Source: Oligoflexia bacterium
GTDB lineage: Bacteria; Bdellovibrionota; UBA1018
Assembly (NCBI GenBank): GCA_903881565.1
Contig: CAIRTR010000121.1
Span: 1-54,413 of the forward strand
Reading direction: 5' to 3'
DNA: 54,413 nt
Shown here one piece after another: positions 49,751 through 53,339 of the stretch; positions within the stretch are counted from its first letter, which is position 1; each line of letters starts with the position of its first letter. The position numbers and the translations under genes were made by a program. Under the pieces are notes generated by a model, which ran no database searches, was not told the origin of the DNA, and worked only from the letters and a program-made list of their open reading frames with translations.

Positions 49751-50857
49751 CTACACCCTCATGGGCATCAAAACGTAGGTATGATTCTGTTCATTTAACC
49801 CTTTGATAATTCCGGGATTTAAACGATCCTTCAATTGAAGTTCCATTTTCTCAGATTTCTGAACCATCAGACAATCCAAAAAGTATTTGGAATTGAATCC
49901 TGTTTCAATTGGGTCACCCGTATACTCGATGTCGATCTCTTCACGTGCTTCACCCATTTCAGGGTTGTTAGAAGTAATGACGAGAACATTAGGCTGAACA
50001 GAGAATTTAATGCTGCGGCTCTTTTCGTTTGCCAAAAGGCTTACGCGTTTAATCGCCGAAGTGATGGTTTCTCGGTCCATTCTAATGACTTTATCCATCG
50101 TATGAGAGAGGAACACACGACAGTCAGGGTATTCGCCTTCGATCAATCGAATAAAAAGGTAAGAATCATTGTGTTTAACAAAGATATTTCCTCTTTCAAA
50201 CGAAAGCCCGACAGTTGAACCACCGAGACTTAAAAGTCGATAAATTTCTGCGAGTCCTTTTTTAGGGATAATCACTCCGCGCTTTAGGTCTGGCGGAGCC
50301 AAAAAGACTTCGTTATCCACAAAAGAGAGACGATAGCCGTCTGTCGCCGTCATGCGCGACAAGCCGTTTTCAAGTTGTTCAAAGAAGACACCATTTAAAT
50401 GATATCGGCTTGAATCTGTTGAAACCGCATACTGCGTCCGGTGAATCATATCGAGCAAGGACTCTGCCCGTGCGTCGATATATACTTTTTCGCTAAACTC
50501 AGGGAGTGCGGGATAATCTTCGGCCGGCATGCTGACGATATTGAATTTCGCCTTGCCGCAAAGAATCTCAACCCAGTTGTTATCTTTTTTATTAATCTGA
50601 AGTGGCTTGTCAGGAAGTTCTTTTACAATCTCTACAAAATGCTTTGAAGAGAGAGTTACTTTGCCGTTGGTCGACATCTCAACTGGCAGAGTAACTTGAA
50701 TTCCTATTTCCAAATCTGTAGCCGAAAGAAAAAGGATGTTGTTCTCCACAACACACAAAATGTTTCCAAGAATTGGAACCGTGTTTTTTCTCTCAACGAC
50801 TGCCTGAACCTTTTGTAGCGCTTCCCATAAGGGAGTGCGATGAATCGTAAAATTCAT
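49751..50857 (-). CDS. dnaN: DNA polymerase III beta sliding clamp
   Basis: The ring-shaped processivity clamp. 368 residues from the ATG at 50857. I chose this start because AGAGGT lies 7 bases upstream and because the N-terminus MNFTIHRTPLWEALQKVQAVVE matches the family; GTG and ATG codons at 50866 and 50863 are less likely. The end TYVLMPMRV is the usual C-terminus. It is the first gene left of the putative origin. dnaA, its usual upstream neighbour, is not there. Confidence 0.97.
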   Translation of the reverse strand: MNFTIHRTPLWEALQKVQAVVERKNTVPILGNILCVVENNILFLSATDLEIGIQVTLPVEMSTNGKVTLSSKHFVEIVKELPDKPLQINKKDNNWVEILCGKAKFNIVSMPAEDYPALPEFSEKVYIDARAESLLDMIHRTQYAVSTDSSRYHLNGVFFEQLENGLSRMTATDGYRLSFVDNEVFLAPPDLKRGVIIPKKGLAEIYRLLSLGGSTVGLSFERGNIFVKHNDSYLFIRLIEGEYPDCRVFLSHTMDKVIRMDRETITSAIKRVSLLANEKSRSIKFSVQPNVLVITSNNPEMGEAREEIDIEYTGDPIETGFNSKYFLDCLMVQKSEKMELQLKDRLNPGIIKGLNEQNHTYVLMPMRV

Positions 50858-50867
50858 AATCATCACC

Positions 50868-51476
50868 TCTTGTGTAATCCCTTATCACTATCTTGAAAGA
50901 AATATCTATAAAAGTTGTTAGTAGTAGTAGGGGACATGAATTCAGGGATAAGCGGGTTAACCAACTGAATTTAATGGATAAAGAAAAAGCACAGAATCGG
51001 GAATAAGCCTCAGGGATAGAATACCTCCGTTTAGGGATAAGTGGGAAGCAGGGGAAATCAACAGGGTTATCAATGGGGTATCAACATGGGGGTGACTGTT
51101 CAGATAGTAAGAGAGGGTGCTTTTTGTGTAATTTCTTAGAAATAAGGACTTCGAAGGAAGAAGGGGAAGGTTTCTTTTTAAGATATGAACATATCAATGC
51201 CGGCGAGTCGCTTAAGGGAGATGGGTATAAACAGCTGTTCAGATGAGGGAAATGTGTGAGGGAGGGATACCTTTTTAAGTCCTTGTAAAGACCGGGAAAA
51301 GATTATTTTTTGATAGGGATAACCGCGTGAATTAGCGGAGAAGTAAGGAGGGACCAAGTGAAAGAGTAAACAGTCGCGCACAGTATTTCAGGTGGTTATA
51401 AACATGAATATTCCCCCCTCCGGCGAGGTAGTTACAAAAAAAGGGGTGCGTCTCAGGAGTTGAGGCTCAAATGCCG
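50868..51476. other. oriC: Probable chromosomal replication origin (oriC)
   Basis: A non-coding stretch of about 600 bp beside dnaN. On the minus strand it has repeated DnaA-box-like 9-mers: TTATCCCTG (50943-50951), TTATCCCTA (51032-51040 and 51314-51322), CTATCCCTG (51011-51019), TTATCCATT (50973-50981) and TTATTCCCG (50998-51006). Weaker plus-strand ones are TTATCAATG (51067), GTATCAACA (51078, 7/9 to TTATCCACA) and TTATAAACA (51396, 7/9). The plus strand is strongly purine-rich at 51100-51380. A short minus-strand reading frame at 51178-51381 has no support as a gene. Confidence 0.72.
50895..50951 (-). other. DnaA box, GC stretch, DnaA-trio and AT-rich unwinding element
   Basis: Read on the minus strand toward dnaN: a DnaA-like box TTATCCCTG (50951-50943), 9 bases, then CCCC (50933-50930), then four CTA triplets (50930-50919). 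After these the sequence becomes AT-rich (50917-50895, with TTTATAGATATTTC). This order matches the basal unwinding module known from Bacillus subtilis, in which DnaA loads from a box onto trinucleotides of form 3'-(G/A)AT-5' and opens the duplex next to dnaN. The assignment is by pattern only. Confidence 0.65.
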
Positions 51477-51486
51477 ATAACAACAT

Positions 51487-52317
51487 GTGATCATTTGTGG
51501 TTTCATAGCTTGGCGTAAATTTTCGGTCCTTGGGATGTTCGCGCTTAAGGGTGCGGGTTTGGCTAGGGCAGGGGACGATCCTCCGCCCCCATTATCGGTC
51601 GCGCAAGCCGCAGACCAAGACGCCGCTGCGATCATACAACAATTTAGTGAAATCCGAGTGGGAATTACTAAGGCTCCCGGCAACGGACATCAAGCGTGCG
51701 CTGTCATGGTGATGAAGAGATTGAGGGAGTTGGGGTTTAATGGTTACTTCGAGGTTTTTTATGACCCCGCCGTTAAAGCGAAACTTGAATTCCTGCTTCC
51801 AGGATTCAAACCCGAAGGCCCAGCGGTTCAAACGTTAACCGGGTTGGGCCGCCTCACTGTTGTTGAATGGAAAGAGGGTTGGCTAAGAGGTTCCTCAACA
51901 GGATTGGATGCGCAAGCCACGGCGGCCGGAAAAAAACATATGGCTCTTGGAATTATGGGCGGAGATGACCTTACTATTACACCCGAGCAACTTAATGTTG
52001 ATGGCCTAATCAGAGTTCAACCAACAGGATACGCGGCAGGCACAATCGCTTTGCAAGGACAGATTCCGGACATTTTGAAAAGGCTTGGAAGCGCGGAGCA
52101 CCTTCTGACACATGTGAAAACGATAGAGTTTTCAAGCGCGAAAGAGCTTCTTCAAAAAGAGATGGGACAGACACCTAAATACAAGCGGCCAGACAAAGTG
52201 AGTGTGACATTAAGTGAAGCGAAAAAATACTTTGAGACGAAGCTAAAGATAGATTCGGCTCCTCGCGCCGGACACTATCTTCAAGAGAAGTTGATAATAC
52301 TCATGGAGGTCCGGTGA
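51487..52317 (+). CDS. Probable secreted protein with GxGHQ motif, unknown function
   Basis: 276 residues from a GTG at 51487. An in-frame ATG at 51535 is the alternative; neither has a clear Shine-Dalgarno site, and a stop lies at 51478. The first 28 residues end in LARA and may be a signal peptide. The core has a beta-strand plus glycine loop (EIRVGITKAPGNGHQ, Gly65-Gln69), then a helix and strand (MKRLRELGF, FEVFYD). This recalls the N-terminal Rossmann half of GT-B glycosyltransferases, but I do not recognise the family. The next gene starts 2 bp after its stop, so the two are probably an operon. Confidence 0.6.
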   Translation: MIICGFIAWRKFSVLGMFALKGAGLARAGDDPPPPLSVAQAADQDAAAIIQQFSEIRVGITKAPGNGHQACAVMVMKRLRELGFNGYFEVFYDPAVKAKLEFLLPGFKPEGPAVQTLTGLGRLTVVEWKEGWLRGSSTGLDAQATAAGKKHMALGIMGGDDLTITPEQLNVDGLIRVQPTGYAAGTIALQGQIPDILKRLGSAEHLLTHVKTIEFSSAKELLQKEMGQTPKYKRPDKVSVTLSEAKKYFETKLKIDSAPRAGHYLQEKLIILMEVR

Positions 52318-52319
52318 AG

Positions 52320-53339
52320 ATGGGCCTCTTTTTTAAGTTGCGGCTTGCTGTCTTGCTCGTTCTGTTTGCACAAGCCCTCCAGCCATTTGGGGCATATGGC
52401 GAGAACACAAATAAGATTGAGATCTACCGAATACCCATAGCACCGGTTTTTGCAGCCCTGGATACGCTTGTGAGAACCAGGCAAGGCATGCCAGTAGGTC
52501 AGGCTGTTAGAAAGGAGCTGGATGAACGCAAAGGGGAACTCGCCCTTTGGGTTGCCTATATCGGGACGACAGTCATCGCCTCACAATTGTTGGCGTCCGA
52601 TCAGGCAGCACTCATCTCGAGAGCGGAGAGTTCGGCGACTCAGCCTATTCTTAAAGTTCTTAATGTTTTGGCTCCAAGCCAGAAGGGGGACGAGGGCTTC
52701 TTTTCGTGGGACACAGCGTTTTTGAAAAAGAGGTTTGGGAAGGGCGTGCAAGAGATCTCTGTTGAGTCTGGAGATGATTTAATTGCCCAGTTAAGGGGTC
52801 TCGAAAAAAGCGGAAGCAAATTTGATCTCGTTCAGTTCACGATGCATGGTTTGGCCGGGCACCCTAGTTTCAAAAAGGGTCCGAGCTTCAGCAAGCGACA
52901 CCTAGAAGAGCTCAGCCGGATATCTTTGATCAACCAGGATGGTGCAGTGGTCTTTGGTTCTTGCAATATTGCGAGCAAATTGCCGATTGCTGGAAACGGG
53001 GATGTCTTTATGGAAAGCGTGGGTCATGCACTTCTCCCACGAGGAGGAAGGGTAATTGCCTCAAAATACCCAATTTATGCGGGCTCCTATGTAAGCAAAG
53101 GTACCGTCGCTTCGCGAAGCAAAGACTTTTGGAGGGGTGTTACTAAAGGCAGAAACATTTTGGAAGCTGCCCAGCTTCTAATGGGCAATCCACTTTTTGT
53201 TGCGAGCTTAGCACAAGCAACATGGGGTGGCAGGCCGGAGGCGGTTGTAGAGAAGAAAATTCTACCTGAAGCGATGCGGCCGAAAAGCACTCGATCGAAG
53301 TGTCTGGTGAACGGACTGCGGAGACTCACAGGGATGTGA
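52320..53339 (+). CDS. Secreted caspase/CHAT-like (clan CD) predicted cysteine protease
   Basis: 339 residues from the ATG at 52320, with GGAGGT 9 bases upstream; a GTG at 52314 is too close to it. A signal peptide (LRLAVLLVLFAQAL, then AYG) predicts export. The C-terminal half has the two blocks typical of clan CD peptidases. A hydrophobic strand ends in His-Gly (DLVQFTMHGLAG, His176). About 39 residues on, a second strand ends in Cys (GAVVFGSCNIAS, Cys215). The following GGRVIAS resembles DUF4347/CHAT-like proteins (GCN-A ... AS). Substrate and target are unknown. It may instead be an inactive relative. Confidence 0.68.
   Translation: MGLFFKLRLAVLLVLFAQALQPFGAYGENTNKIEIYRIPIAPVFAALDTLVRTRQGMPVGQAVRKELDERKGELALWVAYIGTTVIASQLLASDQAALISRAESSATQPILKVLNVLAPSQKGDEGFFSWDTAFLKKRFGKGVQEISVESGDDLIAQLRGLEKSGSKFDLVQFTMHGLAGHPSFKKGPSFSKRHLEELSRISLINQDGAVVFGSCNIASKLPIAGNGDVFMESVGHALLPRGGRVIASKYPIYAGSYVSKGTVASRSKDFWRGVTKGRNILEAAQLLMGNPLFVASLAQATWGGRPEAVVEKKILPEAMRPKSTRSKCLVNGLRRLTGM

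Follow-up and report, generated by a model that had tools for sequence, protein, structure and literature searches.

Few protein-DNA pairs of bacteria are as conserved as DnaA and the DnaA box. Positions 4 and 6 to 9 of the box are conserved across bacteria (PMC5124646). Its 3' half is read by helix 5 of DnaA (PMC5742627), with base-specific contacts made by residues 432-435 and 438-439, among which residues 433 and 434 form a highly conserved dyad (PMC5043019). In Bacillus subtilis oriC, the basal unwinding system (BUS) consists of a DnaA box, a short spacer, GC-rich at its end, 3'-GAT-5' DnaA-trios and AT-rich DNA, in this order, and lies between the box cluster and dnaN (PMC6669920, PMC8287927). 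The module begins there with a tandem pair of boxes, only the upstream one of which is required for strand separation (PMC8287927). The origin of Bdellovibrio bacteriovorus is likewise found upstream of dnaN, followed by recF, gyrB and gyrA, and holds four DnaA-trios that adjoin a box and a short GC-rich segment; NN(A/T)TCCACA describes its boxes, and its dnaA is adjacent (PMC5124646). A precedent for a changed recognition helix combined with a changed box, ACCTACCAC, exists in Thermotoga maritima (PMC10316083; residues in PMC7561715).

Here we describe an origin locus of an Oligoflexia bacterium of the Bdellovibrionota. The window, that is, the whole stretch of DNA analysed, comprises 54,413 nucleotides (contig CAIRTR010000121.1, assembly GCA_903881565.1). 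One genome represents the genus, a metagenome-assembled genome (MAG) in 323 contigs.

Organization of the unwinding module

Directly upstream of dnaN, the minus strand carries TTATCCCTG, a 12-nt spacer ending in CCC, four CTA triplets and an AT-rich tract, in that order. The features of the region are the following.

49751..50866, minus strand: dnaN, DNA polymerase III beta clamp, starting at the ATG at 50857 or further upstream
50263..50271, minus strand: TTATCCCTA within the dnaN gene, a possible additional DnaA site
50882..50890, plus strand: box-like TTATCACTA, one mismatch to TTATCCCTA
50891..50918, minus strand: AT-rich tract ACAACTTTTATAGATATTTCTTTCAAGA, 79% A+T over 28 nt; TTTATATATA in relatives
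50892, no strand: cumulative GC-skew minimum
50919..50930, minus strand: four DnaA-trios CTACTACTACTA, (CTA)4, reading CTA on this strand and 3'-GAT-5' on the other
50931..50942, minus strand: spacer AATTCATGTCCC; relatives carry here a further, proximal DnaA box and GGCC or similar
50943..50951, minus strand: candidate distal DnaA box TTATCCCTG, three mismatches to the canonical TTATCCACA, separated from the first trio by 12 nt
50973..50981, minus strand: box-like TTATCCATT, likewise with T at position 8
51011..51019, minus strand: box-like CTATCCCTG, one of five intergenic TATCCCT
51032..51040, minus strand: candidate DnaA box TTATCCCTA
51262..51270, minus strand: box-like GTATCCCTC, one of five intergenic TATCCCT
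51314..51322, minus strand: candidate DnaA box TTATCCCTA

A sequence-only reading of this DNA had reported a box, CCCC, four CTA triplets and an AT-rich tract on the strand that reads toward dnaN, in the same order as at the B. subtilis origin. Order, strand and coordinates are right and match the BUS (PMC6669920, PMC8287927), with the minor corrections that the fourth C already belongs to the first CTA and that the box departs from the canonical one at three of nine positions. Four perfect CTA trios stand in register on the box strand, where a BUS has at least three, and the 12-bp spacer between box and trios falls within the usual 0-16 bp. The (CTA)4 sequence occurs five times in the entire 4.56-Mb genome, and a box, a 0-16 nt spacer and three or more CTA coincide only at this site within the window. 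The AT-rich tract, which is likely the first DNA to melt, stops about 25-35 bp short of the possible dnaN starts and is less regular than its counterpart in relatives. Between the tract and dnaN, TTATCACTA sits in the opposite orientation and faces the module from the other side. Every 9-mer of the spacer AATTCATGTCCC has at least five mismatches to both TTATCCACA and TTATCCCTA; the proximal box of relatives is not recognisable. In contrast to the tandem pair of B. subtilis, the module thus has one recognisable box, which fits the requirement of that system for the upstream box only.

The upstream DNA of 43 other genomes from the same family, order or class was compared, and most of them show the same layout directly upstream of dnaN. 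A typical relative has a distal box (usually TTATCCAC[A/T], at the position occupied here by TTATCCCTG), a proximal box (for instance TATCCACA), GGCC or similar, the trios and TTTATATATA. Conservation of the triplets, proposed as a check in the sequence-only reading, is borne out by the three to six CTA-like trios present in most relatives. Counting the present genome, 25 of the 34 that were scored have a gap of exactly 12 nt between distal box and first trio; the scoring was automatic and, where trios are degenerate, gave no result or a wrong pick in some genomes.

GC skew and gene neighbourhood

The cumulative GC skew switches sharply at the module, with its minimum at the module edge both in the window and in a 154-kb join with the contig that carries dnaA. 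The sequence-only reading had staked its origin assignment on the place of this switch, and the assignment passes. In two relatives, 200-kb stretches gave noisy skew curves whose minima fell 9 kb (G023) and 56 kb (G028) away from dnaN; these are not used as support. The 620-bp intergenic region beside dnaN contains TATCCCT five times, always oriented toward dnaN; taken as boxes, these sites form the DnaA-box cluster expected of an oriC.

The dnaN product matches TIGR00663 (312 bits, cut-off 138). Beyond the module, dnaN is followed by recF, gyrB, a fabH-like gene and gyrA, the latter four named by reading their translations. The dnaA gene is located on a separate contig, C232. One end of it (L081) and the end of the window's contig (53980-54413) form a dovetail overlap of 435 bp with 92.9% identity, and the frame crossing both ends belongs to the same mutase-like large subunit. 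Because of this overlap and the shared frame, dnaA is probably about 11 kb from the origin, unlike the adjacent dnaA of B. subtilis and B. bacteriovorus; in several relatives, too, about 10 kb separate dnaN from a divergently oriented dnaA. The 92.9% identity suggests that the bin mixes closely related populations, so that the dnaA and origin contigs may stem from sister populations. Both dnaA and dnaN are single in the genome, and the neighbouring gene order matches that of relatives. Two overlapping ORFs (276 and 341 aa; 51487-53339) lie between the origin and the mutase genes; they have no Pfam match at E 0.1 and were not seen in the two relatives in which the mutase adjoins the origin region (L005, L020).

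Genome-wide, TTATNCACA has 63 scattered sites, compared with 51 for a reversed control pattern, and hence no rival cluster of canonical boxes is seen. Upstream of dnaA in this genome, no boxes of a second sub-origin were seen either. We have hardly any doubt that a chromosomal origin with a BUS is present at this locus, and it is almost certain that the module is where oriC unwinds. The skew minimum at 50892 and the conserved module strongly support, at the level of sequence, the DnaA-trio reading proposed earlier, in which the strands would open here.

Altered DnaA boxes of the origin

On both strands, all 9-mers lying 0-16 nt from the trios depart from TTATCCACA at three positions or more. 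TTATCCCTG comes closest and differs at positions 7, 8 and 9; the published search tolerates two mismatches unless a species-specific box is known (PMC8287927). Its single mismatch to TTATCCCTA is to a box deduced from the same origin rather than independently established. Five copies of TATCCCT were reached in 0 of 2000 dinucleotide shuffles of the sequence, and some 7-mer reached five in 21 of 2000. Of the 16 genomic copies of the longer TTATCCCTRA, three lie at the origin within a span of 780 bp.

The box differs from the conserved one mainly at position 8. T occupies this position in all four TTATCC sites here versus 4 of 243 in 25 family relatives, which have C in 231 of them (about 5e-7 in a one-sided exact test done by hand on pooled sites, ignoring their relatedness). 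At position 7, relatives have either A or C, also those that keep His434, and by eye no clear pattern with residue 432 (K or R) emerges. Since position 7 is loose, the unusual change is that of C8 to T. Both TCCACA and TCCCCA are absent within 800 bp upstream of dnaN, the sole such case among the family genomes surveyed, and the origin has none of the TTWTNCACA-type boxes that belong to the canonical pair; relatives have up to about 20 canonical boxes. One TTATCCACA is present inside dnaN. Position 9 has drifted in some relatives, to TTATCCACC in G039 (L030) and to TTTTCCACC in family f5 (for example L031, L032 and L063-L071), which indicates that box variants are common in the order, position 8 staying C.

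A tyrosine in the DnaA recognition helix

The single-copy DnaA of 488 aa contains all three Pfam DnaA domains, matches TIGR00362 over its full length (506.5 bits, cut-off 343.9) and keeps the AAA+ core, the Walker B motif, the Arg finger and the minor-groove Arg (R399). The recognition helix, GGRDHTTV in Escherichia coli and GG[KR]DH[ST]T in most relatives, reads -AKDYSTI here. In the alignment one loop residue is missing and E. coli His434 is replaced by Tyr; of the Asp433-His434 dyad of the canonical pair, the Asp is thus kept. His434 is present in 26/26 aligned relatives. The DnaA of G006 has the same one-residue deletion, yet retains the His.

A DNA pattern for Tyr434 matched this genome only among 55 of the order, and one for Tyr, Asn or Asp at 434 matched this genome only among 369 of the phylum. 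The His version of the pattern detects 22 of 29 DnaA loci of relatives, a sensitivity of about 76%, and the Tyr434 counts are lower bounds. Across 84,980 species, 16 stretches carried the Tyr434 pattern, mainly in Chitinivibrionales, Chitinispirillia and other Fibrobacterota and also in a group of Clostridia or Firmicutes MAGs. A match in Serratia symbiotica was discarded as a 51-aa fragment with no usable DnaA.

Like the present locus, those of Chitinivibrionales and Chitinispirillia (L085-L100) combine Tyr434 with non-canonical box-like repeats near dnaA. All seven usable Fibrobacterota loci with Tyr434 (L085, L089, L091, L092, L097, L099 and L100; a locus labelled Fibrobacter succinogenes, without usable upstream DNA, was left out) have two to four TT[AG]TCAACA sites within 410 bp upstream of dnaA and zero to two in the remainder of each locus. 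Three of the seven have one copy of the canonical TTATCCACA. TT[AG]TCAACA looks like a second altered DnaA box. Unlike the box described here, it is changed from TTATCCACA at position 6 and keeps the C at position 8; Tyr434 therefore does not dictate T8, or any one box. The Clostridia DnaAs with Tyr434 showed no box cluster near dnaA.

The sequence-only reading had called the module textbook. For the DnaA box that term does not hold, given a box beyond the published mismatch limit, an unrecognisable proximal box and the C-to-T change at position 8 alongside the rare His434-to-Tyr replacement.

Discussion

The explanation that we favour, and regard as probable, is a normal BUS origin, with a joint shift of DnaA and its boxes in this lineage. 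Domain IV of DnaA would dock on TTATCCCTG, aided by the upstream TATCCCT sites. From this box an ATP-DnaA filament would extend onto the strand opposite the CTA repeats, that is, along the 3'-GAT-5' trios, stretching this strand and melting the AT-rich tract toward dnaN. With the box differing mainly at position 8 and Tyr434 placed in the recognition helix, a paired change of protein and sites is most likely, which would imply a binding preference of this DnaA for the altered box and a causal link between residue and base change. Counting against a joint shift are its occurrence in one genome only, the location of dnaA and origin on two contigs with an imperfect overlap, the different altered box that accompanies Tyr434 in Fibrobacterota, and the variability of position 7 despite His434. 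For a more far-reaching version, a natural switch of initiator specificity among close relatives, we see slightly better than even chances. His434-to-Tyr and the uniform C8-to-T would then have co-evolved and shielded the origin, in part or completely, from canonical DnaA; Fibrobacterota would offer an independent parallel.

Alternatively, the origin may be an ordinary BUS origin with weak boxes, its DnaA unchanged in specificity, Tyr434 simply tolerated and the TTATCCCT sites of low affinity, working through cooperativity. The intact AAA+ core, Arg finger and R399 agree with this, as do the looseness of box position 7 within the family and the known use of low-affinity boxes by DnaA (noted in PMC8287927). 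We consider it unlikely, since no canonical box remains upstream of dnaN where relatives have many, the change at position 8 is uniform, not random, and the residue change is very rare and falls in the recognition helix. Less probable still, and by a clear distance, is an artefact of assembly or binning, with the Tyr codon arising from a base error (one C-to-T) or with dnaA and origin coming from different organisms. The 323 contigs of the MAG and the contig overlap of only 92.9% identity invite such doubt; against it stand the single dnaA and single dnaN, the gene order shared with relatives, and the box change, which is independent evidence from the other contig. That the site is a former origin in decay, with replication now starting elsewhere and the boxes eroding, we regard as very improbable. 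The loss of the canonical boxes and of the proximal box and the less regular AT tract would suit decay, but the skew switches sharply at this very site, four perfect trios and the exact spacing are retained, the sites have changed uniformly, and the genome holds no competing box cluster.

In summary, the joint shift of DnaA and its boxes would differ from the precedent of T. maritima, a deep lineage in which most contact residues are changed, in that a single genome is concerned, whose family otherwise retains the canonical pair. In this one member a recognition residue of DnaA is altered, and so is a single base in each of the origin's TTATCC sites. Origin searches that rely on TTATCCACA would overlook this box. 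The finding bears on how the pair of DnaA and DnaA box could change without killing the cell, a question that a single deviating member of a canonical family brings within reach of tests on short oligonucleotides and a domain of about 90 residues in two versions.
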